Below are positions 1,247 through 21,473 of a stretch of DNA of 34,126 nucleotides, piece after piece; within the stretch, counting starts at the first letter, position 1, and every line of letters starts with the position of its first letter. The translations under genes were made by a program, and so were the position numbers. The notes beneath the pieces were generated by a model. The model searched no databases. It was not told where the DNA came from and worked only from the letters and a program-made list of their open reading frames with translations. The stretch is from positions 1-34,126 of the forward strand of contig QEVT01000024.1 in NCBI GenBank assembly GCA_003576755.1. The letters run 5' to 3'. This DNA comes from a bacterium (GTDB lineage: Bacteria > Chloroflexota > Anaerolineae > Epilineales > Epilineaceae).

Positions 1247-2488
1247 TCACACCAGCCCCACCGGCACCGCCGTCGCCTGACGGTCGATCGGCGTCACCGT
1301 CGGCGCGAGGCACAGCACCGCCCCGTGGCCCCGCGCCGGGGCGAGCGCGTCGAGCACGGCAAACGCCTTCGACCAGTCTGGCCGCGGCGTGGCGGCGCGC
1401 TTGACCTCGATGGGGTGGAGCAGCCCGTCCTGCTCGATGAGGAGGTCGATCTCCCGCCCGTCGCGGTCGCGATAGAAGTACAACCGCGGCTGCCGGCCCA
1501 CGTGCCACCAGCTCTTCAGCACCTCGACCACGGCGTGCGTCTCGAGCATCGGGCCCGCCATGGCGCCAGCCGCCAGCGTCGCCGGTGTCGACCACTCCGT
1601 CAGGTAGCTGGCCAGGCCGGTGTCGAGGAAGTACAGCTTGGGGGTCTTGACGAGGCGCTGCGTCACGTTGCTGTGGTACGGTCTGAGCACCAGGACCTGG
1701 AAGCTCGCCTCGAGGATCGACAGCCACGCCTTGGCCGTGCCGTGGCTGACGTCGACGTCGCGCGCCAGGTCGGACAGGTTGAGGAGCTGCGCCGTACGCG
1801 CCGCGCAGGCGCGCAGAAACCGCAGGAACGCCTGCTCGTTTCCCACCTGGCTCAGATCGCGCACGTCGCGCTGGAGGTAGGTCTGCACGTACGAGCCGTA
1901 GAAGAGGTCCCGATCCACGTCGTCCCGCGCGACGACTTCGGGCAGGCTCCCCCGCCAGATGCGCTCGTAGGTTGCATCGGCGCCTTCCGCCGTTCCCGCC
2001 AATGCCTGCTCGCGCTCGTGGATGCCCGCGAGCGTCGGCAGGAACGGCGGTAGCGCGAGGCCGCGGCCGGCCGCCTCGCGCTGCGAGAACCCGAGCAGGT
2101 TGACGATCGCCACCCGCCCGGCGAGGGTCTCGGAGATGCCGCGCATCATGGCGAACTGCTGCGAGCCGGTCAGCCAGAAGTCGCCCGGCCGGCGCGTGTC
2201 GTCGATCCGCATCTTGATGTAGGGCAGCAGCTCGGGCGCGTACTGGATCTCGTCGATCAACACGGGCGGCGCGTACCGGTCGAGGAAGAGGCGGGGGTCG
2301 GTCGCGGCCAGCGCACGCAGCATCGGATCGTCGAGCGAGACGTACCGCCGCGCCGGCGCGCACAGGTGCCGCAGCAGGGTGGTCTTGCCGACCTGGCGGG
2401 GCCCGGTGAGGAGCAGCGCAGGGAACTGCGACGCGGCGGCCAGCCACGCCGGTTCCATGGCGCGAGGGCGATAGTTCGGCTGATTCAC
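1247..2488 (-). CDS. AAA ATPase with DUF4143 C-terminal domain
   Basis: This 413-residue protein has the usual DUF4143 plan. It has Walker A GPRQVGKT at residues 29-36, Walker B LIDEIQ at 77-82, the sensor-like LTGSQQF at 106-112 and a SETLAGR box at 119-125. The C-terminal part contains EID (346-348) and EVK (361-363), resembling a PD-(D/E)xK nuclease-like core. The start is a GTG, because the usual N-terminal (Y)xPRAxEPxW segment lies upstream of the first ATG (2458). It begins 14 bases after the stop of the UvrD-like helicase, so it is probably co-transcribed as the last gene of the defence operon. No strong ribosome site precedes it. The family is very common, often in mobile or defence neighbourhoods, and its biochemical role is poorly defined. 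Membership of the defence system is inferred from spacing only. Confidence 0.9.
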   Translation of the reverse strand: MNQPNYRPRAMEPAWLAAASQFPALLLTGPRQVGKTTLLRHLCAPARRYVSLDDPMLRALAATDPRLFLDRYAPPVLIDEIQYAPELLPYIKMRIDDTRRPGDFWLTGSQQFAMMRGISETLAGRVAIVNLLGFSQREAAGRGLALPPFLPTLAGIHEREQALAGTAEGADATYERIWRGSLPEVVARDDVDRDLFYGSYVQTYLQRDVRDLSQVGNEQAFLRFLRACAARTAQLLNLSDLARDVDVSHGTAKAWLSILEASFQVLVLRPYHSNVTQRLVKTPKLYFLDTGLASYLTEWSTPATLAAGAMAGPMLETHAVVEVLKSWWHVGRQPRLYFYRDRDGREIDLLIEQDGLLHPIEVKRAATPRPDWSKAFAVLDALAPARGHGAVLCLAPTVTPIDRQATAVPVGLV

Positions 2489-2502
2489 AGTGCGATTGTA
2501 GA

Positions 2503-4569
2503 TCAGCCGAGCCGGGTGGGCAATCGATCGTTCTCGAGCAGCGGCGACGGCCGGCCCTTGTAGATGATCAGCAGCCGCTCCCGGGCCCGCGTGCAGGCGA
2601 CATAGAGCAGGTTCCGCTCCTGCTCGAGATAGGCCTCGCGGTCGACCTCGTCGGCCTGCTTGGTGCGCAGGAACGCCAGCGGCACGGTGCTCGCGTCGCA
2701 CGCCATCACGGCCACGGCCCGGAACTCCAGGCCCTTGGCCCGGTGCATCGTGCCCACGCCGATGCCCGCGCCATCGGCACCGCCTTCGTCGCTCAGGGCG
2801 CGGTCGGCCTGCCCGCTTTGCCGCACCGCGAGGCGTGCGCGCTCGCGCACCACGGCCTCGGTCCGCCCGAAGATGGCGATCTCCTCGGGGCGGAAGCCCT
2901 GGCTGACGAGGCGGCGGATCCAGTCGGCGACGGCGGCGATCTCGTCGTCGACGGTCGCCGTGCCGACGACCTCGGGCTCCGGGCCTGCCAAGAGCGAGAC
3001 CGTGGCCCGCGTGGCGGTGCTGCCGTCCGCCTCGACCACGGCCGATGGCATGAACCCGTCGGAGAAGCGGCGGATCTGCTCGGTGGTGCGGTAGTTGACC
3101 CGCAGCCGCTCCGAGCGCCCGCGCACGTCGATGCCCGCCGCCGACCATGTGAACGGGCGGCGGTAGATCCGCTGGCCGGCGTCGGCGCACAGGAACAGGT
3201 CATCGGCCCCGGCCGGCGCCAACATCCGGAGCAGCCGCAGCTCGGCCGGACCGAAGTCCTGGCACTCGTCGGCGACGACATGCCCGAACGGCGCCGTGTT
3301 CGTCGCCACGAGGTGATCGGCCAGCGCATGGCAGACCTGGCTCCACGTCAACTGGCCGAGGAGCGCGAGATCGCCCCACACCCGCTCGAACACCTTCCAG
3401 GCCGCCTGCCGCTGCCGGGCGCCCAAGGGCGTGCCGCGCCCGACCCGCGGGTGGGCGCGGTATGCCTCCCACGTGCGCAGGCCCCACGGGTCGACGAGGG
3501 CGTCCCACTCGGCACGCAGGAACACGGGATCGAGGTCGGTGGGTACGGCCGCGGCCGCTTCGTCGATCAGGCGCGCTACGGTGGTGGTGGTGGCCGGCAC
3601 GAAGTCACCGCCCGTCCTCGCGGTCCAGAGATCGACCGCCAGCTTGTGGATGTGGACGATCTCGAGGCGCGCGCGGTGCGGGTCGCCCGGGGCGACGAGG
3701 AGGTCCATCTTGGCGAGCAATCGCGCCGACAGGGTTTTCGAGAACGTTGTCAACAGAACGCGGGCATCGGGGCGCGCGCGGAGCAGCCGCGCCGCCCGGT
3801 GGAGCGCCACCACGGTCTTGCCGGTGCCCGCGCCGCCCGTCACCAACAGCGGGCCGCGGGCTTTCGCCTCGACGACCGACGCCTGTAGCGGGTGCAGGAA
3901 GACCACCCACCGCTCCCACGGCGCTTCCAGGGCGAGCCGGAGCTGCTCTTCGCTCTCGACCACCAGGAACCGGCGGCGTGCGTCGGGGTGCTGGAGGGGG
4001 CTTGCGGTGCTGAGCCCGACGGGCACGGGCACGGGCTGCCCGCAAGCCAGCTCCAGCAGCCGCTCGGCGGCCTCCTGGGGCAGCCGAGCCAGAAGGTCGT
4101 CGATCCCGCTCTCGCCGACATGCCGCACGGCCTGCAGCCATGCCTCGGGGACGCCCAACGCCAGCAGGTAGTCGGGATCGAAGCGCGCAAAGACGGCGGG
4201 CTCCTCGTCGCGGGCGATCCGGTGCACCACCTCCTCGACTCGCTCGGTCACCTCGACCACCTGCACGGCGCGCGTGCGCGGGTTGACCTCGAAGCGGCGC
4301 GCCTCGGCCCAGCGGTAGGCGGCGTCGTGGTGGTCGACGTAGCAGAGGGTGAACGCGTCGGACGACTGGTGGATGATCAACCGCAGGTCGCGGTTGACGC
4401 GGTAGGACCAGAAGCCGGGGTCGCGCGCCGACTCCAGGCGGTGGAAGTTGCCGCCCGGCTGGACGGGATGGACCTGGAAATCGAACACCGTCTGCTTGAC
4501 CAGGGCGCGCTCGTCGTTCTGCAGGCGCTCCAGGGACCGGGTGAAGGTATCCGCGATCACGGTTTGCAT
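2503..4569 (-). CDS. UvrD/Rep-type superfamily 1 helicase with RelE/ParE-like N-terminal domain
   Basis: The protein has 688 residues. Residues 1 to about 92 look like a RelE/ParE toxin fold, with a basic helical start (FTRSLERL), then a strand-rich segment containing SYRVNRDLRLII (55-66) and YVDHHDAAYRWA (77-88). The remainder is a superfamily 1 helicase: Walker A GGAGTGKT at 245-252, DECQD at 434-438, the GQRIYRR motif near 465-471, NYRTTEQIR at 492-500, GTMHRAKGLEF at 606-616 and YVACTRARERL at 656-666. All ATPase motifs appear intact. By family knowledge it would translocate on single-stranded DNA and unwind duplexes. The toxin-like domain may bind nucleic acid or ribosomes, which is unproven. 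Its ATG lies three bases after the stop of the YprA-like helicase (TGA-GCC-ATG), so the two are almost certainly translationally coupled. Similar fused architectures occur widely among bacterial helicases, so the fusion itself is real and not an assembly artefact. Confidence 0.92.
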   Translation of the reverse strand: MQTVIADTFTRSLERLQNDERALVKQTVFDFQVHPVQPGGNFHRLESARDPGFWSYRVNRDLRLIIHQSSDAFTLCYVDHHDAAYRWAEARRFEVNPRTRAVQVVEVTERVEEVVHRIARDEEPAVFARFDPDYLLALGVPEAWLQAVRHVGESGIDDLLARLPQEAAERLLELACGQPVPVPVGLSTASPLQHPDARRRFLVVESEEQLRLALEAPWERWVVFLHPLQASVVEAKARGPLLVTGGAGTGKTVVALHRAARLLRARPDARVLLTTFSKTLSARLLAKMDLLVAPGDPHRARLEIVHIHKLAVDLWTARTGGDFVPATTTTVARLIDEAAAAVPTDLDPVFLRAEWDALVDPWGLRTWEAYRAHPRVGRGTPLGARQRQAAWKVFERVWGDLALLGQLTWSQVCHALADHLVATNTAPFGHVVADECQDFGPAELRLLRMLAPAGADDLFLCADAGQRIYRRPFTWSAAGIDVRGRSERLRVNYRTTEQIRRFSDGFMPSAVVEADGSTATRATVSLLAGPEPEVVGTATVDDEIAAVADWIRRLVSQGFRPEEIAIFGRTEAVVRERARLAVRQSGQADRALSDEGGADGAGIGVGTMHRAKGLEFRAVAVMACDASTVPLAFLRTKQADEVDREAYLEQERNLLYVACTRARERLLIIYKGRPSPLLENDRLPTRLG

Positions 4570-4572
4570 GGC

Positions 4573-7500
4573 TCAGCCTTCAAGCATTGCGCGCAGGCGC
4601 CGCGCCACGTCGTCGGCGGGTGCGTCGGGTACGGAGACGACGACTCGGGTGCTGGCGTCGCCGACCGGTCGATCGTGGAGCAACACCGCTCCGGCGTCGG
4701 TCGGCCACGCCATCGTGGCGACCTCGCCCGTCGTGAAGCCGCGGACCGCCACGTCGAAGTCGATCTCGGGCGGCGGGAGGCCGCGGTGTCGCAAGCCCTC
4801 CGCCAACGGGCGCCAGCGGGCGTCGAGCAGGGCGAGGGCCTCGGACCATGGATCGCCAGCGGGCGGGTCATCGCCGCCGGTCCCCGCGACTTCGGGCGGC
4901 TGGAACCACGACGGGTCGGCAGCGAGCTGCTCGGCGTGGCCGTTGCCCAGCATCAACCAGCGGGCGAGCCGCTTCAGCTTGGCCGCCATCTCGGCGCGGT
5001 CGAAGAGGTCGCTGGCGGCGATGACCAAGACGCGGTAGTCCATGGCCTTCAGCCGATCGCGGAGCACGCGGTCGCGCTCCGCGGTCGCGGGGTTGCCGTG
5101 CAGGTGCCGGCTGAGGCCGTCGAGGTAGATGCAGATGCCGGGCTCGTCGTCCTCGCCGGGGTAGAAGCCGTCCGGCTCGGTCCAGCCGAAGCCGGAGCCG
5201 AGGTCGATGCGATGGTGCCAGATCGGCGCCGGGAAGCCGGCCTTCGCCAGATCGTCGCGGAGCGCCGCCTCGGCCCGGTTGACCGGGAGGCCGGCATGGT
5301 CGGCCGGTGGCGAGGGCAGTCGCGGCGGGACGAGGTGCTCGAACGCGAGCTCCGGTCCCCATGCCGCGAACCGCTCCGCCGCGACGGTGCGGTCGAGATG
5401 CCGATGGAAGAAGCCGTTCTCGAAGCTGAGGAGGCAGTCGACACACGCCCGCTCGCAGGCGGACGGGCAGCTCGCCACGACGTCGCGCGCGGCGGCGAGG
5501 ACTTCCGGGAACCGGCCGACGAGCTGGTCGAGCAAGCCCGAGCCGCCGGGCATGGGATCGTAGAGCACGGCCTCGACGGCGTCCTGGCCGGCGAGGCCGA
5601 TGACGAGCACCTCGAGGTCGTCGCGCTCCATCTCCAGCACGCGGGACGCGCCGATGCGCAGCGCCTCGAGGACGGAGTACGCCTGGGTGCGGTCGGCGAC
5701 GTCCGGGAGCACCATGGCGTCGGCGGCGATGTCGGCGTAGAAGCCGGTGGGCTGGACGGGCTGGCCGCAGCGCTCGAGATGCTTCTGGGCGAAGTGCTCG
5801 CGCTCCTTGGCCGAGGACAGCGGCGACGCGCAGTAGCCGCAGACCAGGCACAGCGGGTAGCCCGGCACGGCATGGGCCAGCGCCGGACCGACGTTGACCA
5901 GCCGGAACCGCGCGCCGCGCAGGTGCTGGACCGCGACCTCGCCCCAGCGGTGCGCGGCTCCGCCGCCGTGCTGCTCGCGGCGCAGGCCGTACACCGCCAC
6001 GGGCAGTTGGAAGCGGAAGTCCTCGTTGTCGCTGATCTGGGAGCGGTGCTGAAGGTCGACGTCGCAGATCGGCACGGCGCGCAGCTCATGCGCGGCCAGC
6101 GGCGCGACGCCGCCGGCGGGCGCCTGCCCCACTTCCGTGACGGCCTCGTGCGCGGGGTCGACGGCGAAGCAAGCCTGGGCTCGTGCGCCCGACGCAGCGT
6201 CGACGACCTCGAGCTGGTAGTTGCCGGCGACAAACCGATGCCCGTTGGCGTAGAGCAGGTTGCCGGGGACGAGCTCGCGCAGGGCCAGCGTAGGCGGGCG
6301 CGACAGGACGAAGGCGTCGCCCAGCGGCGGGCGCAGGTCGGCCAGGGCGCGGATGGCGCCGGTCTCGAGGCCATAGCCGGGCAGGAACCCTTCGGCGGCC
6401 AGGAGGCCGTAGGTGTAGGTGTCGTCGTCGGGTTCGGCGGCCGCCCGACGGCGCTGACGGTCGGTGCCCTTGAGGCGCCGGACCAGGCGTTCGCAGCGGT
6501 CGAAGTGGGCCTTCTCGTCAGGGTCCAAGGCCCCCTTGCGACGGCGGACCTCGTCGAGGCGCTGCATCTGGTCGCGGGCCCAGTCGAGGCGCCGGCGCAG
6601 GCGCCCCAGCACGGCGCCGAGGTCGTCGGCCATGCCGTCGATCAGCGCGCCGAGGCGCTGGGGGCCGACCCCTTCGGCCTCGGCCGCTGGCCACCCCTGG
6701 CGGAACGCGGCGGTGACGCTGTCCAGCAGCGCGACGCGGTGGGATTGGATGAGGTCTCGCAGCGGCGCGAGGTCGGGAAGAGCGGGCAGCACCGCGCCGC
6801 TCTCGTCGAACAGGTACCCGCGCACCCAGGCCGGGAAGGCCCGCTCGAGGACGGCGAGAGTGGGCGACGGCGGCCCTTCGCGGCGGGCGGCCTGGTGCAG
6901 GCCGGTCAGCACGGCGGCGTGCACGTGGCGGGCCACCATGAGGTCGTTGCGCAGGTTGAAGCGCGGCGGCTCGACGTGGCCGCCGAGCAGCTTGAGGGGG
7001 TCGGCGAAGTACGCGCGGTCGTGGCTGACGGGCCGCGCGTAGGTGAGGTTCACGGCCATGCGCATGCGCCGGCCGGCGCGACCGACGCGCTGCCAGTAGT
7101 TGGCGGCTTGCGGCGGCACGTTGCGCATCAGCACGGCGTCGAGGTCGCCGATGTCGACGCCGAGCTCGAGGGTCGGCGTGCAGACCAAGGTGTTCACCGC
7201 GTCGCCGTGGCCCTTGAAAGCGCGCTCGATGGTCTCGCGGACGGCGTGCGGCACCTGCGCCGAGTGCTCGTGCGGGCGGAGCATGCCGGTGTCGTCGCGC
7301 AAGAGGAGGAGGTCGTAGTTGTCGGGGTCTTCGAGTTGGTGGACCAGGCGGCCGTCGCAGCGCCAGGCGGTGCACCGCTGCCGCGGCGCCCCGCGGGGCG
7401 TCGCGCGGCGGCAGCGGTCGCAGCGCCACTGGCCCTCGTGGGCGGCGAGCACGAGGTGGCCGGCGTCCAGCTGGTAGGCGCCGGTGCAGTTCGGCAGCGG

Positions 7501-10326
7501 CTTGGGCGTGGCGCCGCTGCCCTTCAGCGTGACGGGGGTCAGGATGCCGAGGTCGGCGGTCAGGACGCGCCACAGCTCGGTCAGGCAGTCGTCGACGCGC
7601 TCGGGCGGGATGCCCCAGCGCGCGGCGTGCTGGCGGGCGGTGGTCTCGCCCTTGGTGCTGAGCCAGTGGTCGAGCCGGGTGCGGTCGTCGGCGGCGGCGC
7701 GGCGCAGCTTGACGCCCTTGGGGACGCCTTGCAGCACGGGGAAGTAGCCGCGCTGCACCTCGAAGTCGCCGTCGCGCCAGAAGCGGCCGAAGAGGTGGTC
7801 TTGGGGGTCGTGGACGATCGACTTGCGCCGGATCTGGTCGAGCAGGCCGGCCACGCCTTCGCGCAGCTCGGCAGGCGGCAGGCCGGCCAATGGCGCCCAG
7901 GTCTGGAAGAAGGGGAGGCCGGGCTCGAGGCCGTGGTACTGGACGATCATGCGGCCCCACGGCTCGAGGCCGATGCGCTGGCGGAAGGCGGTGGTCACCT
8001 CGCGGAGTACCTGGATGCGGAGGTAGCGGCGCCGCTCGTCTTCGTGCCGGTGCCCGGCCTTCTCGGGGAGATGGACGGCCCACACCTCGGGCACGAGGGT
8101 GCGCGAGAGCTCGTCGTCGGCCGCCAGGCGCTCGTCGAGCGTGGCGGCGAGGTCGCCGACGGACTGCGGGCGGTCGCGCAGCGCCTGGTCCATCAGGGCG
8201 CGCAAGCGGTAGCGGCGGGCATGGTCGCGCATCCAGCCGGCCTGGAAGGCGGCGTCCTGGCGGTTGTCGGCGAACACGAGCAGGCGGGGCCGCTCGGCGT
8301 GGCGCAGCATGTCCTGGGCGAGGATGTGGACGTCGGACACGGCCACGGCGCGCAGCTCGCGGGCGGGCTCGCGGTAGCGGGCGCCCATGGACCGGCCGCG
8401 GCTGCCGCACGAGAGGCAGGCGGTGAGGTAGCCGGGCGTGTCGGTCTTTTGCTGTGCGGCCAGGAGGGGCACGAGCGGGCCGGAGCGGGTGCAGGCGTCG
8501 CAGCGGGGACGGGGCAGGGGGTGCAGCGCGCCGCAGTGGCGGCAGAGGTGCACGGGCGCGCTGCGGCGCGGGATGTCGGGCTCGTCGGGGGCATCGGGGT
8601 CGTCGCCGGGATCGGCGGCGGCGCGATCGTCGGCCAGGCCGGCGAAGCGGTCGAAGAGGACGAGCCGCGAGCCGCCGTTCAGCGCGTCGAGGGCGGGCCA
8701 GTACCAGCGGTCGTCGACGGCGACGCCGCCGCCAGGGGTGTCGCCGTCGAAGGTGAAGTCCTGCACGGTGTGCACGAAGTAGTGCTGGCCGCAGGTGGTG
8801 CACGTGGTCAAGGGCAGACGGGCGAGCGGGACGTCGGTGCGGGCGGCGGCCTCGTCTTCGGCGGACAGCCACAGGCGCGGCTCGGCGGCGCCTGCGGGGA
8901 AGGTGACGATGGCGCCGCCGAGGCCGCGGGTGAAGGCATGCACGATAGGCCGCAAGAGCGGCCGGCCGGCGTTGCGGGCGGCGGCGCCGAGCACGAGCCA
9001 CGTTAGCAGCTCGGCCTCGGCCACGGGGCGCCCGACGCGGCGTGACAGGTCGTCGAGGGTGCTGTCGAGGGGTCGAGGCTCGGCCAGGGTTTCGGTGAGC
9101 TGGTAGACGAGGTCGTTGGCGGCCATGCGTCGATACAGGTCGTGGCGCCAGTCGTCCCAGAGGGGCTCGCCGGTCATGGCCTGCCACGCGGCTTGGATGG
9201 CGGCGGGGTCGTCGGCGTCGACGGCGGCGAGCACGGCCTGCAGGTGCACGGTGGGGTCGCCGGGGGGCGCGGGGCTGGGGGCACGGACGCGGGACCAGTC
9301 GTCTTCGGCGTGGGACTCGCCGACGACGTGCACGGCGGCGGGATCGACGCCGAAGAAGCGGGCGGCGAAGGCGCGGCCGGGTGCGTCGCCGCCGTCGGGG
9401 TCGACGAGGGTCGCGGAGGTGGCGACGCAGACGGTCTCGTCGGCGGTGCGGCCGCAAAACGAGCGCAGGCGGCGGATGAGGCAGGCGGTCTCGGCGCCGG
9501 CGGCGCCGCTGAAGGTGTGGGCTTCGTCGAAGACGAGGAAGTCGAGGCGGGCGTCGTCGAACAGGTCGACGTCGGCCTGGCGGGTGAGGAGGAGCTCGAG
9601 CTGCTTGACGTTGGTCAGGAGGATGCGGGGCTGCTGGCCGCTGGTGCGCATGGCTTCGCGGGAGCAGCGTTCTTCGGGCGGGTTGACGGCGGTGGTCTGG
9701 AAGGTGGCCTGGGCGCGGGCGAGGGCGGCGGCGTAGTCCTGCCGGGAGCTGCCGGCATCGAGGCGCTGGCTGGCGACGTCGGTTTCGGCGCGCGGCGTGC
9801 TGCCGACGTACAGCCCGAAGGTGACGCCGCTGCCGGCCAGGAGGGCGCGCAGGCGGCCGATCTGGTCTTCGGCGAGGGCGTTCATGGGGTAGACGAGGAC
9901 GGCGGTGATGCCGGCGGGTGCTCCCTGGTCGCGGAGGTTCAGGCAGTGGCTGATGATGGGGTACAGGAAGCACTCGGTCTTGCCGGAGCCGGTGCCGGTG
10001 GAGACGAGGGTGGTCTGGCCGGCGGCGATGGCGCGGATGGCCTCTTCCTGGTGGCCGTAGAGGCGGTCGTGGGGGTGCAGGCTGGCCAGGAGGGGGTGGA
10101 GGAGGCCTTCGTCGACGAGCTGGCGCACGGCGGCGCCGGGCCGAAAGGCGCGCGACAGGCTGATGTAGGGGCCCCTCAGGAGGGGGCTCTTGCGGGTGGC
10201 GTCGATGGACAGGAGCTGGCGCATCTGGCGGCTCAGGCGCTGATCGGCCAGCGGGTAGGCGGTGAGCTGGTAGCGGAGGAAGCCGCTGATGACCTTTTCG
10301 GTGTATGCGACGGGGTTGATGGCCAT
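4573..10326 (-). CDS. Giant YprA/DrmAB-like DEAD/DEAH helicase with DUF1998 region and possible C-terminal nuclease fold
   Basis: This is a 1917-residue superfamily 2 helicase. Walker A is STGTGSGKTE (K116), followed by VYPMNALAEDQ (145-155), DEAH (267-270) and motif VI RVGRAGRR (1080-1087). Several CxxC pairs in the middle (roughly residues 500-660 and near 970-1000) suggest zinc ribbons. The Cys cluster C1620, C1624, C1628, C1631 matches the DUF1998/MrfA-type C-terminal region. Near the end, EPD (D1719), IYLDG (D1736), a following His and an RDRVLRDRL helix resemble the Vsr/DUF559 endonuclease fold. The ATG has GGAG six bases upstream. The gene is coupled to the UvrD-like gene downstream. 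In DISARM, helicase and DUF1998 functions are split between DrmA and DrmB; here one protein holds both, as in YprA/MrfA and Druantia DruE. The role as motor of an anti-phage complex is inferred from context. Confidence 0.92.
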   Translation of the reverse strand: MAINPVAYTEKVISGFLRYQLTAYPLADQRLSRQMRQLLSIDATRKSPLLRGPYISLSRAFRPGAAVRQLVDEGLLHPLLASLHPHDRLYGHQEEAIRAIAAGQTTLVSTGTGSGKTECFLYPIISHCLNLRDQGAPAGITAVLVYPMNALAEDQIGRLRALLAGSGVTFGLYVGSTPRAETDVASQRLDAGSSRQDYAAALARAQATFQTTAVNPPEERCSREAMRTSGQQPRILLTNVKQLELLLTRQADVDLFDDARLDFLVFDEAHTFSGAAGAETACLIRRLRSFCGRTADETVCVATSATLVDPDGGDAPGRAFAARFFGVDPAAVHVVGESHAEDDWSRVRAPSPAPPGDPTVHLQAVLAAVDADDPAAIQAAWQAMTGEPLWDDWRHDLYRRMAANDLVYQLTETLAEPRPLDSTLDDLSRRVGRPVAEAELLTWLVLGAAARNAGRPLLRPIVHAFTRGLGGAIVTFPAGAAEPRLWLSAEDEAAARTDVPLARLPLTTCTTCGQHYFVHTVQDFTFDGDTPGGGVAVDDRWYWPALDALNGGSRLVLFDRFAGLADDRAAADPGDDPDAPDEPDIPRRSAPVHLCRHCGALHPLPRPRCDACTRSGPLVPLLAAQQKTDTPGYLTACLSCGSRGRSMGARYREPARELRAVAVSDVHILAQDMLRHAERPRLLVFADNRQDAAFQAGWMRDHARRYRLRALMDQALRDRPQSVGDLAATLDERLAADDELSRTLVPEVWAVHLPEKAGHRHEDERRRYLRIQVLREVTTAFRQRIGLEPWGRMIVQYHGLEPGLPFFQTWAPLAGLPPAELREGVAGLLDQIRRKSIVHDPQDHLFGRFWRDGDFEVQRGYFPVLQGVPKGVKLRRAAADDRTRLDHWLSTKGETTARQHAARWGIPPERVDDCLTELWRVLTADLGILTPVTLKGSGATPKPLPNCTGAYQLDAGHLVLAAHEGQWRCDRCRRATPRGAPRQRCTAWRCDGRLVHQLEDPDNYDLLLLRDDTGMLRPHEHSAQVPHAVRETIERAFKGHGDAVNTLVCTPTLELGVDIGDLDAVLMRNVPPQAANYWQRVGRAGRRMRMAVNLTYARPVSHDRAYFADPLKLLGGHVEPPRFNLRNDLMVARHVHAAVLTGLHQAARREGPPSPTLAVLERAFPAWVRGYLFDESGAVLPALPDLAPLRDLIQSHRVALLDSVTAAFRQGWPAAEAEGVGPQRLGALIDGMADDLGAVLGRLRRRLDWARDQMQRLDEVRRRKGALDPDEKAHFDRCERLVRRLKGTDRQRRRAAAEPDDDTYTYGLLAAEGFLPGYGLETGAIRALADLRPPLGDAFVLSRPPTLALRELVPGNLLYANGHRFVAGNYQLEVVDAASGARAQACFAVDPAHEAVTEVGQAPAGGVAPLAAHELRAVPICDVDLQHRSQISDNEDFRFQLPVAVYGLRREQHGGGAAHRWGEVAVQHLRGARFRLVNVGPALAHAVPGYPLCLVCGYCASPLSSAKEREHFAQKHLERCGQPVQPTGFYADIAADAMVLPDVADRTQAYSVLEALRIGASRVLEMERDDLEVLVIGLAGQDAVEAVLYDPMPGGSGLLDQLVGRFPEVLAAARDVVASCPSACERACVDCLLSFENGFFHRHLDRTVAAERFAAWGPELAFEHLVPPRLPSPPADHAGLPVNRAEAALRDDLAKAGFPAPIWHHRIDLGSGFGWTEPDGFYPGEDDEPGICIYLDGLSRHLHGNPATAERDRVLRDRLKAMDYRVLVIAASDLFDRAEMAAKLKRLARWLMLGNGHAEQLAADPSWFQPPEVAGTGGDDPPAGDPWSEALALLDARWRPLAEGLRHRGLPPPEIDFDVAVRGFTTGEVATMAWPTDAGAVLLHDRPVGDASTRVVVSVPDAPADDVARRLRAMLEG

Positions 10327-10682: not shown

Positions 10683-10777
10683 GTGTGGCATCATAGCATC
10701 GGGTCGATGCCTTCGCAACCAGAGCGATCATGGGAATCCGTTAGACTGCCCCGAACGCGCGTGCTTTGCTGACAATC

Positions 10778-10783: not shown

Positions 10784-10788
10784 TCACG

Positions 10789-12937: not shown

Positions 12938-12987
12938 GACGATTCCCTTCCCAGAAGCGGTTGATCTACGGTGCGGCCTGCTGCCGC

Positions 12988-15900
12988 TCAATCCTCCCAC
13001 AAGCCGCGCTGCTTCCCCGCCTCGTACTGCGCGCGTTCCTCCGCCACGCGCCGCTCCTCGCGCTGCTCGCCGGCGAGCTCGCGCTGTAGGCGGCGGAACT
13101 CGGTTTCGCCGAGGATGTTCCTGGCGTGGCGTTCGCACTCGGCCCAGCTTTCCTCGGCGGTCTGTTCGAGCTGCCACGGCAGGAAGCGCTCGCCCAGCCG
13201 GGCGCGGACGGGCTGGGCGACCCCTGCGCGGTCGTCGTGGCCGAGGCCGAGGTCGGCGAGGCGCAGCGTTTCGGGGAGCATCCACCCGTCGCCGTCGTGC
13301 TGGCGGCAGAAAGCGTCGATGCCGCCATGGCGATCGCCGGCGCGGGCGATGGCGCCCTTGAGGTCGTGGAACGCGACGAGGCTCAGCACGGTGTGCCGCA
13401 ACTCGGGGTCTTGGGTCTTGTCGACGCGCCAGAAGCCCTTGGGGTCGAGGGCCCGGGTGAAAGCGCTCTGCCGCATCGCCGCGGCGGGATGATCGCAGTC
13501 GCGCAGGATGTACGCGAAGTCGTCCCAGTCGAGGCCGTACAGCTCGGCGACGACGGCATCCAGCATGGCGCGCAGGCGAAGGCGCTCATGGGGGGTGATG
13601 GCCCAGAGGCGGCGCCAGGAACGCTTACCGTCGAAACGTTGCCATAGGGACTGTAACCGAAGCCACATGGGCGCGAACTGATCGTTGGGAGTAGCAAGCT
13701 GGGCAACGGCCGCCAACCAAATGTCTCTGATTCCAACGAACACAGAGCGGGGAGGCAGTGCGGTCTCCACCATTACGAACTCACTCATGTTGAGACCACC
13801 AAGTCGACCTCGGGCCTGAAAGTCGAACACGATAGAGTTGAGTACGCCCACCAAGCTCAGACAGTCCGAACTGCTGTGTGTACGAGAGCGAAAGAAGAAC
13901 ACGCTGTCCCCTGCTGGCAGCGAATCCAAGTACGTGGCTATCGTTGTTCTCGAATTCGTCGCGGAACTGATCCGCATGTAGGCAAGTTTGGGGTGGAGGT
14001 ACGACTTTTTCGATCCGCGGGCACTCGCCAACCCCATCAAATACTGCGGCTCAACCACCTTCGCTCCCCAAGGAATCTCCCGCCATACAGCCGTTCTCCC
14101 CTTGCCGCTAACCCACCCTTTATCACTGAAGTCGAACTGCCCGATCATCCGCCCTTCGTACAACGGCAACGCCACATCCCCCCGCGGCCCCACCCACCGC
14201 CCATACTCGTCCGGCCGATAGCCCTTGGCTTCCCACTGGGGGCGCGGGGGGAAGAGGTGGGAGTCGTTCGTCATATGGAACTCGGTTGCGTATCGGATTC
14301 CCCACCCCTCCGGTCCGTCGTCGCCCAAGAGGACCGTGCCCGTGTAGATCTTCTCGAGGATCGCGATGTCGCGCTCGCCCCGGATTTCCAGGATCGCCTG
14401 CGTGCGCGGGCTGAAACGGTCCACCTGCGCCCGGCCGTACGGGATCACGTGCCGCTCGGCGTTCTCCCAGTCCGCCAGATCGTGCCGCATGAACGCCGCC
14501 GTCACCGCGCGCGTGGCGCCCCCTTTCTGCACGATGATCGGGCAGAACTTGAAGCTGCGGTGGATTCCGAAGATGCCATCGCGGTTCTCGAACCCGAACA
14601 ACCACTGCCACCGCGAGCGATCCAAGAGCAGCACCCGCAGCGCCGTCGCACCCTTGTCCGTGTAGAGTCCCGACGGCACCACCAGGCCCAGACGCCCGTC
14701 ATCCCGGAGCAGCGCGCGCCCTTGCTCGATGAACATCTTGTACGTGTTGATGTCCGCCGCTCCCTGGTGGCGGAAAGGGTGCTCCGCGTCGGCGTACGAC
14801 ACCCATCCCGCGCGCCGGTGCCGCCATACCGCGTGGACGCCTTCGCCGCCCTTGCCCAGGTTGAACCGCCCTTCCCCGTCCGCGCCATCCCCAAACGGCC
14901 GCCCCGCGTGTTGGCTCCAGCTCGACAGCGCCTTGAACCGCGCGTTATAGGCCAGCCAGGCCCGCTCGTCCGCCGCGCTGGCCGCGAAGATCTCGCGCTG
15001 CCGCCGCAGCGCCTCCTGCTTGCCGTAGCTCCGGTAGAGCGGGTCGAGGTTCGAGAAGAACTCCTTGCTGTTCGGCTTCTGGATCTCCCACGGCGGGTTC
15101 CCGATCACCGCATCGAAACCGCTGCCCTCCGCCGCGAAGACGTCCGGGAACTCCAGCTCCCAGTGGAAGAACCCGTGCCGCCGCGCCAGCGCCGCCACCC
15201 CCGCCGCCGTCGCCGCGCTCGGCCGCTCGAACGACTCCGGCGACGGCGCCGACGCCAGGTCGTCCGCCGGCCAGAACCAGCACGCGCACCACGTGTCGAA
15301 GGCCGCCTTCAGCGCCAGGTAGCCCCGCCCCTCCACCAGCGCCCGGTAGGCATCCGCCTGCCGCTCCGGGTCCGCCAGCCCCACCCCGTGCACACCCTCC
15401 AGCCCCGCCCGCAGCGCCGCGTGCAGCGCCTCCGGCGCAGCGCCGTCGACCACGTCCAGGAAGTGCCGCTGCCCCGTGATCCACCGCGGCAGCTCCTCCT
15501 TCACTCGCTCGTTGCGGAAGGCCTTGATCGCCCGCGTCCACACCTCCTTCCCGAAGTGCACCCCCGCGTGCCGCTTGTCGCCCCCCTCGCGCTCCCACGC
15601 CAGCGCCGGGTAGTCCCGGAACCGGTCGAACCAACAGCCCACCAGCGCGTTGCCCGCCTTCAGCTTGTGGTCCAAGAAGCCGAACGGCAGCGAGCGGTCC
15701 ATCGTCTCCACCCAAAGCGCCAGCCGCGCCAGCTCCACCGCCAGCGGGTCGACGTCTACACCGTAGATGCACCGCTCCACCACATAGCGCTTCAGCCGCG
15801 CCCGGAGCGTCGACTCCCCCTCCGGCCCGTCCAACGCCGGCATCCGCTCCTCCCCCAGCCCCCCCGTCTCCGGCAAGCCCAGCGGCATCGTGCGCCCCCG

Positions 15901-18033
15901 CCCATCCGGCAGCGGCGCCAGCCGATCGTGCGCGTGCAGGCTCTCGAAGAGCGCGTCCGTCAAGAACCGCAAGCCCGCCACCAGGAACGAGCCCGAGCCC
16001 ATCGCCGGGTCGCACACCCGCAAGCCCAGGATCGCCTCCGGGGCCCGGACCCGCCACGCATCCGCCGGCGCCCGCTCGTCCGGCAGCCCGTCCGCCCCCA
16101 GCGGCGCCTCGTACGCCAGCGGCCGCAGCGTGCGCTGCGCCGTCGGCACCGCCAGCCCCGGCGGCGTGTAGAACGTCCCCGCCCCCTTCCGCGTACCCCC
16201 CCAGCGCACCAGGAACCACTCGCCCGGCAACACCAGCCGCGCGATCAACCCCTCCGCCGCTCGGTCCAGCGCCGCTTCGTACGCCCCCAGCGCCGCCTTC
16301 GACGCCCCCCGCGGGCGCCGCATCCCCAACGCCGCCGCCCGCCGGCCCCACGCCAGCGCCCGTGTCCGCGCCCAGTGCCACGCGTCGTCGCCGGCACCGC
16401 CCACACCCGCCGCGTCGCCGCCCACACCGCCGCCCTCGGCCACCGACCCGACAGCCCCGATCTCCCCCGTGACGGCCCGACCGTCCACCGACTCCCAATC
16501 TCCGCCGGCAACCGACTCCCCGTCGCCGTCTCCCACCACCCCTTCGTCGTCCTCGCCCGCCGACTCCCCGTCGCCGCCATCCTCCGACTCCCCACCGTCC
16601 GCTGCGTCCCCCTCGCCGTCCAGCGACACCGCCGCTTGCGTCACCTTCAACTTCTTCAACAAGTCGCGCAGCGCGCTGTCCGGGAGCCCCTCCAGCCGCG
16701 ACAGCGGCAGCGCCGGCTCGTCGCCCAGCGCCAGGAACACCATCGGGTCGCCCGCCGGCGCCCGGCGCAGCTCGAAGTCCAAGAGCCCCTCGTAGAGGAT
16801 GCCGATGTACTCCGTCGAGAGGTCCGCGAAGTCCACCGGCACGTCCACTACCGTGCTGCCGCGGCCCTGCCGCAGCCGCGTCGGGCAGCGCGTGATGAGG
16901 TCCAGGATCGCCCACGTCGTCCCGTCGTGCGGCCCCGCGTCCGGCAGCTCGAACACCGCCAGCGCCCGCCGCACCGGGTCCGCCGACGCCGCGTCGCCCG
17001 GCTCGAACAGCCCGCCCCCGTAGCGCGGGACCGGCAGCTCCGGGTGGTGACAGCCCCCGTGCACCAGCCGCCACAGCGCCAGGATGCGCGGCCACGCCCC
17101 CCGCCGGTGCCGCAGCCGGTCCACCCCGCCCGCCGCCGCAAGCTGTTCCCGCAGGCCGCCCAGCCCATACCCCGCGTGGTACAGCGCGTTGTCGCGTGGC
17201 AAGAGGTCGCGCGCCTCCGCGAAGAGCACCACCACCAGCCGCATCACCGCCCGGCACGCCGCCACGTACACCGCCTCGCCCGGCACCGAGTCCTCCAGCG
17301 CTTCCAGCCGCGGCCCGTAAGCCTGGATGAGCAGCTCCACCGCACGACGCACCCGCTCCCCCAGCGCATGCGACAGCTCCGCCTGCCCCCGACGCGAGTC
17401 CAGCACCGCTGCCAGCAGCACCCCCGGCCCGCCGTCCGGCGCCGGCGCCAGCACCTCCGGCGCCAGGAGCGCCCGCAGCGCCGCCACCTGCGGCCCCGGC
17501 CGCCCGTGCTCCAGCCACAGCGCCGAGTCCCACTCGGCCCACGCGTGATGGTCCAGCCCCGCGTACACCAGCCGCCATTGCCGCCCGTTCGTCATGAGCG
17601 CGAGGTGCAGCCGCGCCCGCCGCAGCCACTCCACCACCCGCGCGAAGCCGCGGCGGCCCCGGCCGAGCCCGAGCCGCGGCGCGTCGTCCAGGAACACCGG
17701 CAGCGGCGCCGGGCCGTCCGCCTGCCACACCCCCCACGGCCGGGTGGCCGCACCCGTCAGGTCGCGGTGCGTCCACGTCGTGTCCAGCGCCGGCCCCAGC
17801 CGCCAGCCCTCCAGCGCGTCCAGCCCGCACACCCGTTCCAGCACCGTGCTCATCAGCGCCGCGCGGGCGTCCGTGTCGCCAGCCTCCGCCCGCACCAGGT
17901 CGCGGCGCAACCGGTCCGCCAGCCACGGCGCCAGCGCATGCGGCTCGGCCGGCAGGCCGCGCAAGCGTGCCGGCGCGATCAGGAGCCCGCCGTGCCGCAG
18001 GCTCGACCACCAGGCGTAGGGCTCGCCCGCCAC
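12988..18033 (-). CDS. drmMI: DrmMI/PglX-like Eco57I-type N6-adenine DNA methyltransferase
   Basis: The protein has about 1681 residues. Motif I CDPAMGSGSF is near 674-683, the YGVDVDPLAVELARLALW segment is typical of the Eco57I/PglX group, and the catalytic NPPW is at 979-982. The N-terminal 450 or so residues are a large helical region. The region after about 1300 looks like a target-recognition part, ending with LNSIVFDFQARG. By family knowledge it methylates adenine N6 and marks self DNA in DISARM or BREX systems. The GTG at 18033 was chosen because it follows the drmD stop by one base (TGA-C-GTG) and its first residues fit the family better than the frame extension into drmD. A Gly/Asp/Glu-rich low-complexity stretch (about residues 465-548) precedes the catalytic core. 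Codons at about 13630-14110 have lower GC than the rest. It is longer than usual for the family. Confidence 0.88.
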   Translation of the reverse strand: MAGEPYAWWSSLRHGGLLIAPARLRGLPAEPHALAPWLADRLRRDLVRAEAGDTDARAALMSTVLERVCGLDALEGWRLGPALDTTWTHRDLTGAATRPWGVWQADGPAPLPVFLDDAPRLGLGRGRRGFARVVEWLRRARLHLALMTNGRQWRLVYAGLDHHAWAEWDSALWLEHGRPGPQVAALRALLAPEVLAPAPDGGPGVLLAAVLDSRRGQAELSHALGERVRRAVELLIQAYGPRLEALEDSVPGEAVYVAACRAVMRLVVVLFAEARDLLPRDNALYHAGYGLGGLREQLAAAGGVDRLRHRRGAWPRILALWRLVHGGCHHPELPVPRYGGGLFEPGDAASADPVRRALAVFELPDAGPHDGTTWAILDLITRCPTRLRQGRGSTVVDVPVDFADLSTEYIGILYEGLLDFELRRAPAGDPMVFLALGDEPALPLSRLEGLPDSALRDLLKKLKVTQAAVSLDGEGDAADGGESEDGGDGESAGEDDEGVVGDGDGESVAGGDWESVDGRAVTGEIGAVGSVAEGGGVGGDAAGVGGAGDDAWHWARTRALAWGRRAAALGMRRPRGASKAALGAYEAALDRAAEGLIARLVLPGEWFLVRWGGTRKGAGTFYTPPGLAVPTAQRTLRPLAYEAPLGADGLPDERAPADAWRVRAPEAILGLRVCDPAMGSGSFLVAGLRFLTDALFESLHAHDRLAPLPDGRGRTMPLGLPETGGLGEERMPALDGPEGESTLRARLKRYVVERCIYGVDVDPLAVELARLALWVETMDRSLPFGFLDHKLKAGNALVGCWFDRFRDYPALAWEREGGDKRHAGVHFGKEVWTRAIKAFRNERVKEELPRWITGQRHFLDVVDGAAPEALHAALRAGLEGVHGVGLADPERQADAYRALVEGRGYLALKAAFDTWCACWFWPADDLASAPSPESFERPSAATAAGVAALARRHGFFHWELEFPDVFAAEGSGFDAVIGNPPWEIQKPNSKEFFSNLDPLYRSYGKQEALRRQREIFAASAADERAWLAYNARFKALSSWSQHAGRPFGDGADGEGRFNLGKGGEGVHAVWRHRRAGWVSYADAEHPFRHQGAADINTYKMFIEQGRALLRDDGRLGLVVPSGLYTDKGATALRVLLLDRSRWQWLFGFENRDGIFGIHRSFKFCPIIVQKGGATRAVTAAFMRHDLADWENAERHVIPYGRAQVDRFSPRTQAILEIRGERDIAILEKIYTGTVLLGDDGPEGWGIRYATEFHMTNDSHLFPPRPQWEAKGYRPDEYGRWVGPRGDVALPLYEGRMIGQFDFSDKGWVSGKGRTAVWREIPWGAKVVEPQYLMGLASARGSKKSYLHPKLAYMRISSATNSRTTIATYLDSLPAGDSVFFFRSRTHSSSDCLSLVGVLNSIVFDFQARGRLGGLNMSEFVMVETALPPRSVFVGIRDIWLAAVAQLATPNDQFAPMWLRLQSLWQRFDGKRSWRRLWAITPHERLRLRAMLDAVVAELYGLDWDDFAYILRDCDHPAAAMRQSAFTRALDPKGFWRVDKTQDPELRHTVLSLVAFHDLKGAIARAGDRHGGIDAFCRQHDGDGWMLPETLRLADLGLGHDDRAGVAQPVRARLGERFLPWQLEQTAEESWAECERHARNILGETEFRRLQRELAGEQREERRVAEERAQYEAGKQRGLWED

Positions 18034-18034
18034 G

Positions 18035-21000
18035 TCAGCCGCCCGACCCCGGCAGCCGGATCTCGACCGCCACCGGGAACACCTGCGCCTCGCCGAACAG
18101 CGAGTGACGGCGCGGCAGCAGGTGCTCAAGCACCCGCTCACGCTCGCGCTCGAGCTGCGTGCGCAGCTCGGCGCCCTGCCGCTTGCGCCGCTCGATCTCC
18201 TCGGCCCGCGCCTGCGCGCTTCGCGCCAGCTCCTGCAGGTAGGCCTCCTCGCCCCACAGCGGAAGCTGCCCCCGCTGGCGCTCGATCTCCTTCAGCTCGC
18301 GCTCCAGCCGCTCCACCGTCTGCCCTTCGATGAGCGTCGACAGCTCGCCCTGACGGCTCTGGAAGCGCGCCTGCGCCTCCCGGCGTTCCACCTGTCCCGC
18401 CGCCGAGAGGGCCGCGCGCAACTCCCCCGTCAGCACCTGCCGGCGCGCCTTCACCACGTCGCGCACCGCGCGCTCGACATCGTCCCAGACCTCAGCGGCC
18501 GCGGCGATGTCGCGGGCCGTCGGGACCGCCGCCGTCGGGACCGCATCCCCGGCCGCGCCCGTCGACGGCGCGTCCGGCTCCTCCGGCAACAGCGCCCCGC
18601 CGCGCACCGGCAGGCGCAGCGTGCGCACCCAGTGGTGGAACGTCTCGCGCAGCGCGTTGACCGCCAGCTCCTCCACCGTCAGCACCACCATGGCGTCCGC
18701 GCCGGCCGGCACCGCGCCCCGCCGCACCGTCCAGCGCGTGGCCGTGCCGACGCCCGGGTAGCGCTCGCGCGCGAAGACCGCGAGCATGCGCTCCACCAGC
18801 GGGTGGGCCAGGTGCAAGAGGGCGGTGTCGCGCCGCGGCCTGAACACCGGCCGGCCGCTGCCCGGCGCGGGCTCGACCAGCCCGGCTGGGTCGAAGAGCA
18901 GCGCCGGCAGCGCACCCGGCGCACCGCCAGGGCCCGGCTGGCGCAGCGACGCGTCGATGAGGTCGACCCAGTCCGGCGCCAGCGGGTGGCGGAGCTGGCA
19001 GCGGCCGCGCCCGTCGGCCGCTTCGAGCCGCGGCCGTCCGGCGCGCAGGCCCATGGCCACGTCCAGCGTGGCGCGGAACGTTCCGGCGTTCAGGTCGAGC
19101 GCCATCCGCAGCGCTCGCTGGCGCTCGGCCTCCGCCGCGCCCGTGGAGTCGGCGGCCGCCGCGTCGTCGCGCGGCACCTCCGACTGCCCGCGCAGCCGCT
19201 CGCCGGCCTCGTCCACCGCCCGCCGGAGCACGCCCGGATCCTCGTCGTCCAGGAAGCGCCGCTGGAAGGCCTGGTCGAACACCTCGCCCATCGACCCGAG
19301 GTCCTCGCGGATCTGCTCCACCTTGCCGACGACGTAGCCCAGGAAGTCCAGGTCCGCGTCGTCGTTGCTGACGAAGTGGAACACCTTCACGTCGCGCGCC
19401 TGCCCGTGGCGGTCCAGCCGCCCGTTGCGCTGGTCGAGCCGGGCGGGGTTCCACGGCACGTCGAAGTGGAGGAGCAGCCGCGCCGTCTGCTGGAGGTTCA
19501 GGCCTTCCGAAGCGGCATCGGTGGCCACCAGGATCCGCACCGCGTCGTCGGGATCGTTGAATGCCGCCTTGATCGCCTCGCGCTCGTCGTGCCCCATCCC
19601 CCCGAAGAGCGTCCGCACCGCGCCGTCCGCGCCGAACCGCTGCGCCAGCCGCCGCGCCAGGTAGTCCAACGTCGTCTTGTACTCGGTGAACACGACGAGC
19701 CGCTCGTCGCTGCGCCAGCCGCCGCGCCCGCGCAGGTACGTCTCCACCAGCCCCAAGAGCTGGTGGACGCGCGCGTCGTGCCGCGGGTCGTGCGGTGACG
19801 CGCCGCCGTCGGTCGCGCCGAGGTCGAGGTCCGCCAGCGCGGTTTCCACCGCCCCGATCGCGCCCGCCAGCTCGCCCGCCCGTGGGCGCAGCCACGCGCC
19901 CACCGTCCGGGCGGCGTGCGCCAGGCGCCCTTCGACCTCGAGGTCGTCGTCCGTATCCTCGCGCGCGGCCCGCTCGGCCGCCCGGACCTCGGCGTCGCCG
20001 ACATCGTCGACGGCGCCGTGCCCGGCCCGGAAGCGCCACCACGAGTCGGCGAAAGCCACCGGGCACGACAGCAGCCGCTTGCCGAGCACCTCCACGGCGA
20101 AGCCGCCGGCCAACTGCTCGCTGCGGCGCGCCGTGCGCAGGAGCCGCCGCACCGCCTTGCGGAAGTCCTGGAAGGCCGCCGCCAGCCGGCGCTCCTCGGG
20201 TGAGAACGACAGGCGCACGGCCTGCAACTCGCGGCTCCCGAAGCGCGGCGGGCTGACCTGGGCGTTGATCTCACGCTTCAGGCGTCGCACCACCGCCTCG
20301 GCGACGCGCTCGCGGGCTGCCGGCGGCAGCTCGCTGGAGCGCGAGAAGCGCACCGGGTCGAGCAGCTCGAGCAGGCCCGTGAACGACCGCGTGTGGCCGC
20401 TGTGCGGGGTGGCGGTGAGGAAGATCCGGTGCTCGAAGTGGGGCGTGAGCTCGGCCAGCATGCGGGTGCCCTGGCTGTCCTCGCCGTAGCCCACGGGCGC
20501 CAGGTTGTGCGCTTCGTCCAGGACCAGCATGTCCCACGGCAGATGCGGCGAGCCCTCGGGGACCTGGCACGCCGCCACGAACTCCGAGAGCACGTCGGGC
20601 TGCTTGAGGTAGTCGAACGATGCGATGACGCGCGGGTAGGCCCGCCACGGGTTGGCATCCAGCCCTTGCTGCTTGCGCAGCCGCCACGTGGCTTCGCGGT
20701 CGACGGTCTCGAAGCGCAGCGCAAACTTGTCCTGCATCTCCTGCCGCCACTGCGCCCGCAGCGAGGCCGGGCAGAGGACGAGCACGCGCCGCAGGCGCCG
20801 GCGAAGCGACAGCTCGGCCAGGATGAGCCCCGCCTGGATGGTCTTGCCGAGCCCGACGTCGTCGGCCAGGAGGAGGGCGACGCGCGGCATGCGCAGCGCC
20901 TTGAGCAGCGGCACGAGCTGGTAGTCCTCGGGCTGGATGGCGCCGTGGAAGGGCGCGGCGACCGGGAGCGGACCCAAGGGCCCGTCGCCGTCGGGATCGA

Positions 21001-21301
21001 GGAACGGCACGAGCGCCGACCACCGCGTGGCGCGCACCAAGGCGTCGAAGACGTCGGGCGCCATGGGCGCGGTGGCCGTCACGTCGGGCAGCGCGGTCGG
21101 CTCGAGCAGCGCCGCGCCGGCCTCGCGCTCCCAGATCAGCGTCTCTTCCGCCGGCCCGTCGGGGTCGCTGAACGCCACCGTGGCCAGGTGAAGCTGGTCG
21201 CCGGTCGTTCCGCCGACGGCGTCGACCGCGTTGACGACCCCGCGGCGGTTGCGCACGGTGGCCATCATGCCGACCCGCGGAGGAAGCGCGGCAGGGCTCA
21301 T
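18035..21301 (-). CDS. drmD: DrmD-like SNF2-family helicase
   Basis: This 1088-residue SNF2-type helicase has ADDVGLGKT (146-154, Lys153), CPASLRAQW (177-185), DEAH (262-265), LTATPHSG and, in the second RecA domain, ATDAASEGLNLQ and RLDRHGQ. A charged coiled-coil region (about 970-1050) precedes the C-terminus. In class 1 DISARM, the SNF2 protein DrmD is encoded just ahead of the adenine methylase DrmMI; that order and a one-base junction are seen here. By family knowledge it is an ATP-driven duplex-DNA translocase. The ATG at 21301 is the first good start. No strong ribosome site is visible, and Met11/Met12 are alternatives. A promoter candidate lies about 140 bases upstream, making this the first gene of the island. 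Similar SNF2 proteins exist in other systems, so the DrmD name rests on the neighbour. Confidence 0.85.
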   Translation of the reverse strand: MSPAALPPRVGMMATVRNRRGVVNAVDAVGGTTGDQLHLATVAFSDPDGPAEETLIWEREAGAALLEPTALPDVTATAPMAPDVFDALVRATRWSALVPFLDPDGDGPLGPLPVAAPFHGAIQPEDYQLVPLLKALRMPRVALLLADDVGLGKTIQAGLILAELSLRRRLRRVLVLCPASLRAQWRQEMQDKFALRFETVDREATWRLRKQQGLDANPWRAYPRVIASFDYLKQPDVLSEFVAACQVPEGSPHLPWDMLVLDEAHNLAPVGYGEDSQGTRMLAELTPHFEHRIFLTATPHSGHTRSFTGLLELLDPVRFSRSSELPPAARERVAEAVVRRLKREINAQVSPPRFGSRELQAVRLSFSPEERRLAAAFQDFRKAVRRLLRTARRSEQLAGGFAVEVLGKRLLSCPVAFADSWWRFRAGHGAVDDVGDAEVRAAERAAREDTDDDLEVEGRLAHAARTVGAWLRPRAGELAGAIGAVETALADLDLGATDGGASPHDPRHDARVHQLLGLVETYLRGRGGWRSDERLVVFTEYKTTLDYLARRLAQRFGADGAVRTLFGGMGHDEREAIKAAFNDPDDAVRILVATDAASEGLNLQQTARLLLHFDVPWNPARLDQRNGRLDRHGQARDVKVFHFVSNDDADLDFLGYVVGKVEQIREDLGSMGEVFDQAFQRRFLDDEDPGVLRRAVDEAGERLRGQSEVPRDDAAAADSTGAAEAERQRALRMALDLNAGTFRATLDVAMGLRAGRPRLEAADGRGRCQLRHPLAPDWVDLIDASLRQPGPGGAPGALPALLFDPAGLVEPAPGSGRPVFRPRRDTALLHLAHPLVERMLAVFARERYPGVGTATRWTVRRGAVPAGADAMVVLTVEELAVNALRETFHHWVRTLRLPVRGGALLPEEPDAPSTGAAGDAVPTAAVPTARDIAAAAEVWDDVERAVRDVVKARRQVLTGELRAALSAAGQVERREAQARFQSRQGELSTLIEGQTVERLERELKEIERQRGQLPLWGEEAYLQELARSAQARAEEIERRKRQGAELRTQLERERERVLEHLLPRRHSLFGEAQVFPVAVEIRLPGSGG

Positions 21302-21444
21302 CGGCGCCCGGTCGGGTGATGAGGCGCCGCGTGGTCGGGGCGATGGCCCTGGAACGAGCAGACCGTGGCGGTGTGCCCGGGCGTGCGCCTGCGCCGCGGA
21401 CGGGATGGCGATGAGGAATCCATGGATGGCAAACCGTGGCGCGG

Positions 21445-21473
21445 AGGATATATGGCCCTGTCGGCGGCGTCAA
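21445..21473 (-). promoter_or_regulatory. Candidate sigma70-type promoter of the defence operon
   Basis: On the minus strand, TTGACG (21473-21468) and TATCCT (21450-21445) are separated by exactly 17 bases. They match five of six and four of six consensus positions in an otherwise GC-rich region. Transcription would start near 21438 and leave a leader of about 137 bases before the drmD-like ATG. It lies downstream of the hairpin that ends the preceding gene. This is a motif match only. Confidence 0.5.

Follow-up and report, generated by a model that had tools for sequence, protein, structure and literature searches.

Introduction

ARMADA was defined by Bell et al. in 2025 as the combination of a YprA helicase, a BrxHII/RapA-like helicase and a PglX-like methylase, and according to the main text of that paper its YprA protein bears a DUF1998 module and a C-terminal Vsr nuclease, together with a BrxA-like helical insert after RecA1 and additional beta-barrel and MarR-like inserts (PMC12458937). 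As given there, Type II systems show a strict A-B-C order followed by a RelE-UvrD gene (ArmD), which is listed for this type only; the A-B-C order was also reported for archaea and cyanobacteria. The E. coli ARMADA II acts directly and non-abortively, and all four of its genes are needed (PMC12458937). In BREX, the GmrSD enzyme BrxU is encoded between brxC and pglX, provides complementary protection, cleaves DNA with modified cytosines and acts independently of BREX (PMC8565348); nuclease effectors recur inside BREX operons (PMC12839542).

Here, we describe a locus on contig QEVT01000024.1, which belongs to a metagenome-assembled genome of the Chloroflexota (Anaerolineae; 4.4 Mb in 489 contigs, 82% complete). 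The whole stretch that was analysed, 34,126 nucleotides long, is referred to as the window. Judged from its sequence, the locus is very probably an ARMADA system of the arrangement ArmA-ArmB-cargo-ArmC-ArmD, with a cargo that is independent of the system and sits in a recurrent slot between ArmB and ArmC.

Identification as an ARMADA system

The domain content and gene order equal those of ARMADA Type II, both as defined by Bell et al. in their main text (PMC12458937) and as found in an E. coli plasmid (L013) and in the loci L104 and L105. With the systems of E. coli NCTC 12900 and ATCC 8739 described there, the locus shares the A-B-C-D content and order, the protein architectures, the essential motifs and the tight junction between ArmC and ArmD, while it differs in having an ArmC outside their clade, an ArmD on a separate branch and a cargo of 2.66 kb that separates ArmB from ArmC. 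An original prediction, made from the same DNA, had proposed a relative of DISARM centred on a YprA helicase, with ARMADA as a possible home, and domain content and order bear this out. The minus strand carries every gene that it named, in the order that it gave, and the junctions that it described as tight read as claimed. Its extents needed correction, since ArmA starts with an ATG at 21301 and not at 21473, and a plus-strand nucleotidyltransferase gene had been missed, so that the run is not wholly co-directional.

ArmA (18035-21301, minus strand) is a SNF2/RapA helicase of the BrxHII/DrmD family with 1088 amino acids, Pfam matches to SNF2-rel_dom and Helicase_C, a Walker A motif GLGKT at residue 150 and a Walker B motif LDEAH at residue 261. 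It matched DrmD of PADLOC with 7e-202 and NCBIfam DISARM_DrmD with 675.8 bits against a curated cut-off of 610. ArmB (12988-18033, minus strand), a PglX/DrmMI/Type IIG-like adenine methyltransferase of 1681 amino acids, starts 1 base past the ArmA stop codon (TGA-C-GTG); it matched Pfam Eco57I (6e-21) as well as REase_MTase_IIG and DrmMI of PADLOC, and carries the S-adenosylmethionine (SAM) motif DPAMGSGSF at residue 675 and NPPW at residue 979. About residues 1251-1500 of ArmB (13534-14283, minus strand), the GC content at third codon positions (GC3) falls to 0.72, compared with 0.90-0.96 in the rest of the gene, and residues 1301-1500 are among the less conserved parts in a comparison of 14 homologues. 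From its composition and low conservation, this segment is probably the target-recognition region and would have been exchanged recently.

ArmC (4573-10326, minus strand, 1917 amino acids) is a YprA-family helicase with Pfam matches to DEAD, Helicase_C and MZB, the latter (DUF1998) at residues 1554-1632, and with cysteine-rich segments, of which conserved cysteines lie in the region where ARMADA has its BrxA-like, beta-barrel and MarR-like inserts. DUF1998 is thus fused to the helicase and is followed by a C-terminal Vsr-like nuclease at about residues 1690-1800, whose PD (1718-1719), DG (1736-1737) and H are conserved across the ArmC clade, as defined for ARMADA. A fold search with this C-terminus gave no match below E 0.001; the best Foldseek match was the catalytic domain of I-Bth0305I (probability 0.98, E 0.05). 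ArmC lies on the defence branch of the YprA helicases, on the side of ARMADA and Druantia, and not with the housekeeping MrfA, the outcome that the original prediction had set against itself, or with DrmA. For MrfA and DrmA this rests on profile or phmmer comparison, while the trees held Type I, Type II and DruE references: PADLOC gave DruE3 with 2e-109 compared with DrmA with 8e-17, and ArmC matched a 2108-residue helicase (PDB 9tu7) with E 1e-50 compared with 6e-28 for MrfA/YprA.

ArmD (2503-4569, minus strand, 688 amino acids) follows ArmC across TGA-GCC-ATG and combines an N-terminal RelE/HigB-like domain with a UvrD/GajB-like helicase carrying UvrD domains and a Walker A motif GGAGTGKT at residue 245. 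Its AlphaFold model matched UvrD structures (E 3e-21), its N-terminus gave a HigB-like match of 3e-4, weaker than the Pfam cut-off, and over its full length it is 33% identical to the ArmD of the E. coli plasmid. The RelE-UvrD gene had been taken for an additional component of the locus; according to the main text of Bell et al., it is a defined ARMADA gene (PMC12458937). The motif classes essential in E. coli ARMADA II are all intact in the window and stand at the equivalent places in the proteins, namely the Walker motifs of ArmA, ArmC and ArmD and NPPW of ArmB.

ArmC and ArmD lineages

One genome scan yielded 80 loci; a tree of 77 proteins and a second tree of 26 proteins under a mixture model were built. 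In the larger tree, the ArmC of the window falls into a clade of about 50%-identical proteins with 100% support, apart from the equally supported clade of E. coli-type Type II proteins. Its members come from Myxococcota, Planctomycetota, Pseudomonadota, Actinomycetota, Acidobacteriota, Chloroflexota and other phyla; further members from cyanobacteria (L012, L051) and archaea (L053) were recognised by sequence match but were too incomplete to be placed in the tree. The clade joins the Type I references (Nocardioides L103, Rhodococcus L108 and the haloarchaeal L107 and L109) at the widest fork (support 99), yet as a separate clade. The mixture-model tree likewise separates it from Type II, and an approximately unbiased (AU) test rejected joining the two (p 9e-6). 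The order A-B-C-ArmD, with cargo between B and C, is found here with an ArmC that lies outside the Type II clade. With the Type I references, the locus shares the side of the ArmC tree and the A-B-C order, while its distinct, fully supported ArmC clade and its ArmD set it apart.

The window's ArmD falls together with its counterparts in L034 and L039 (support 92) and away from the Type II ArmDs (100), and an ArmD also follows ArmC in the Thermus operon L106. In the Marinobacter operon L041, by contrast, ArmA, ArmB and ArmC occur with no ArmD. A third group of ArmDs (support 100) is mostly encoded beside Type III-like restriction-modification genes; in its loci L141, L142, L143 and L144, from other Chloroflexota, the RelE-UvrD genes lie beside N6_N4_Mtase and/or ResIII and not beside ArmC. 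A second ARMADA, Type I-like, is present in the same genome: its ArmC on contig C437 (L021:2150-7233) is 47.5% identical to that of Nocardioides, and contig C286 (L148:192-9136) encodes ArmD-ArmA-ArmB. As the ArmC stands at the contig end, this suggests the order C-D-A-B. Since ArmD occurs in the clade of the window, in this second ARMADA and in the group linked to restriction-modification, it is a module of several methylase-based systems and not a mark of Type II alone. Two points go beyond what Bell et al. describe in their main text (PMC12458937): the gene behind a Type I-side ArmC is an ArmD from a lineage of its own, and the second ARMADA of this genome has an ArmD as well. The original prediction had suggested that the locus may extend ARMADA, and it does so by this ArmC/ArmD lineage and by its cargo slot, not by new core parts.

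L039 (9947-17851) holds an ArmC-ArmD pair whose upstream 10 kb contain neither ArmA nor ArmB and whose nuclease motif is degenerate, having lost DG and H; it is possibly a reduced system. In a search of viral contigs one locus was found, L102 (IMGVR_UViG_3300048599_000897), an ARMADA of the window clade whose 102-kb contig is classed as viral and whose slot contains DUF932 and HNH-like genes.

An insertion slot between ArmB and ArmC

ARMADA operons of many phyla have repeatedly taken up insertions at the junction of ArmB with ArmC. In loci with A-B-C order, we counted a junction as occupied from 0.6 kb of extra sequence upwards and found 30 of 48 ArmB-ArmC junctions occupied and 18 empty, compared with 2 of 33 between ArmA and ArmB (Fisher 1.4e-7) and 0 of 12 between ArmC and ArmD (1.2e-4). 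Occupancy changed at least 13 times on an ArmC tree of 38 rows, which means that insertions were repeated. The contents vary almost from locus to locus, with 66 Pfam families among 77 open reading frames and many PADLOC matches. GmrSD genes were seen in the window and in L014, nucleotidyltransferases and AbiEii in the window and in L029, L031, L042 and L016 (the last on the same contig as L048, PLND01000001.1, of the Anaerolineae), OLD-like ATPases in L032 and L064, a Fic gene in L038, and PIN toxins in L012 and L051. A slot of this kind is not mentioned in the main text of Bell et al. (PMC12458937), the supplements of which lay outside our scope. In L069 (2114-10005), a second ArmA-like gene stands between ArmB and ArmC. 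A Thermus plasmid ARMADA (L106:4733-5446) carries a gene with a NYN domain between ArmA and ArmB, one of the two interrupted junctions of that kind. In several loci, tblastn left about 1.6 kb unmatched between ArmA and ArmB; these stretches were rejected as insertions, since an uninterrupted ArmB frame runs through them, and they are only divergent ArmB N-termini.

In the window, the slot begins with a GmrSD-type (DUF262-DUF1524), BrxU-like type IV restriction endonuclease of 595 amino acids (11150-12937, minus strand), which starts 50 bases past the ArmB stop codon on the same strand, has intact DGQQR and HILP motifs and matched GmrSD_N (3e-35) and GmrSD_C (3e-21) of Pfam. Overlapping its end on the opposite strand, between it and the antitoxin gene, lies an MntA-like minimal nucleotidyltransferase (10789-11256, plus strand; NTP_transf_2 4e-10; NCBIfam MntA_antitoxin 3e-9, short of the cut-off), for which no HEPN partner was seen. 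The third gene encodes an orphan AF2212-like (DUF104) antitoxin (10422-10694, minus strand; Pfam AF2212-like 6e-7) with no adjoining PIN/VapC gene. The antitoxin and the nucleotidyltransferase are remnants of toxin-antitoxin modules. The composition of the locus shows two layers: ArmA (GC3 0.95), ArmC, ArmD, the downstream DUF4143 gene and most of ArmB reach 0.90-0.96, and ArmA, ArmC, ArmD and a housekeeping gene 0.93-0.95, compared with 0.69, 0.72 and 0.62 for the three slot genes in the above order. This contrast marks the slot genes as recent arrivals in an older operon, foreign cargo and not core.

Alternative explanations

The shared DrmD-family helicase and DrmMI-like methylase, with ArmA over the DrmD cut-off and a DUF1998 module that DrmB has as well, make the locus a DISARM relative, as predicted originally, and might be read as a class 1 DISARM in which DrmA, DrmB and DrmC are fused into one protein. 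This is very unlikely, as the helicase matches DruE far better than DrmA in the PADLOC profile comparison. The original prediction was right that a single protein of 1917 residues stands in the window, which has no separate DrmA, DrmB or DrmC gene; its nuclease, however, is Vsr-like (PD...DG...H) and not of the phospholipase D (PLD) type of DrmC, and a RelE-UvrD gene is no part of DISARM. Exactly these differences define ARMADA in the main text of Bell et al. (PMC12458937), the already described system to which the locus belongs. That all top PADLOC matches of ArmC are DruE could point instead to Druantia with other partners, which we regard as highly improbable: the ArmA-ArmB pair is present, PADLOC found no DruH or other Dru match among the scanned genes, DruE III has PLD nucleases, and the E. 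coli DruE stands far from the window clade in the 77-row tree. PADLOC 2.0 (2023) predates ARMADA, so that DruE is merely the nearest model for ArmC. A decayed or chance cluster without function, in keeping with the ArmC frames that lie in pieces in L012, L044, L048, L051 and L066 (by decay, phase variation or assembly error), is just as improbable, since in the window every frame and catalytic motif is intact and the junctions abut or overlap, and since ArmA, ArmB and ArmC follow in this order in dozens of loci with a homologous ArmC, from many phyla, more than chance would give. The ArmA/ArmB pair is a routine neighbour of homologous helicases, contrary to the other outcome that the original prediction had named as refuting it, and lies upstream of ArmC in most resolvable loci of the window clade.

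That GmrSD, with or without the nucleotidyltransferase and antitoxin, is an obligate partner in a new multi-component ARMADA seems unlikely to us, although its position and strand directly behind ArmB, the second DUF262 gene in the slot of L014 and the GmrSD enzyme hosted by BREX (PMC8565348) speak for it. DUF262 genes occupy only 2 of about 30 filled slots, more than a third of the junctions are empty, GC3 is foreign, the nucleotidyltransferase is antisense, and BrxU itself is independent of BREX; the DUF262 gene, which had been counted as a component, was therefore rejected as a conserved partner. As in BREX with BrxU, a GmrSD enzyme lies inside a methylase-based defence operon, though here the host operon is ARMADA and the insertion is between ArmB and ArmC. 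A bolder reading is that the window represents a third ARMADA lineage, found in many bacterial phyla and having ArmC and ArmD families of its own, whose slot is a dedicated docking site for secondary defence genes that serve as backup effectors against phages able to evade or block ARMADA. It is possible but tentative, and we consider it doubtful.

Several points weigh against our identification of an ARMADA system with independent cargo in a recurrent slot. ArmC is about 25-33% identical to the E. coli ArmC in the aligned parts and lies outside its clade, and transfer of the E. coli phenotype is hence an extrapolation; the protective activity of the locus is a prediction. The Vsr fold match is weak and the Vsr assignment leans on the published ARMADA family, and the RelE assignment of ArmD leans on a sub-threshold profile match and on Bell et al. 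ArmD follows ArmC in only four of the 27 clade loci with downstream sequence (the window, L034, L039 and L051). The loci of the slot count are partly related, their open reading frames were called by simple rules, and the occupied slots of L034 and L036 hold no recognised gene. Self-marking by ArmB is a proposal, and in the E. coli system a SAM-motif mutant lost protection only in part (PMC12458937).

Neighbouring genes

A DUF4143/AAA_14 ATPase gene (1247-2488, minus strand, GTG start at 2488; Pfam DUF4143 4e-44, GC3 0.94) follows ArmD after 14 bases. Its composition is host-like, no match was found downstream of ArmD in L034, L039 and L051, and it was rejected as a component for want of a match beside other ArmD genes; it is probably a neighbour gene. 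Upstream of ArmA lies a gene for 596 amino acids (21560-23350, minus strand) with a lower GC (0.64). It was likewise rejected, having no family in Pfam, PADLOC or NCBIfam and no match in related loci.

Proposed mechanism and significance

In the mechanism that we propose, ArmB would methylate a short motif in host DNA as a self mark, as its homologues suggest, and ArmA, a RapA-like translocase, would inspect incoming DNA together with ArmB. Unmarked phage DNA might then be passed to ArmC, which would translocate on DNA with single-stranded stretches and cut it by its Vsr-like nuclease; loading on 3' single-stranded regions and degradation of long DNA have been shown for DruE, a related helicase (PMC13192584). 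ArmD, with its UvrD motor and RelE-like domain, could aid in unwinding or clearing the substrate. As independent cargo, comparable to BrxU in BREX, GmrSD may cleave phage DNA with modified cytosines that methylation-marking could miss.

Since ArmD is not a hallmark of Type II, the published two-type scheme needs widening. Current tools would annotate the locus as a partial DISARM with a Druantia helicase. The ArmB-ArmC slot, a specific position that repeatedly receives other defence and toxin-antitoxin genes, can guide the search for defence genes that are still unknown, and whether a passenger cooperates with its host operon becomes directly testable.

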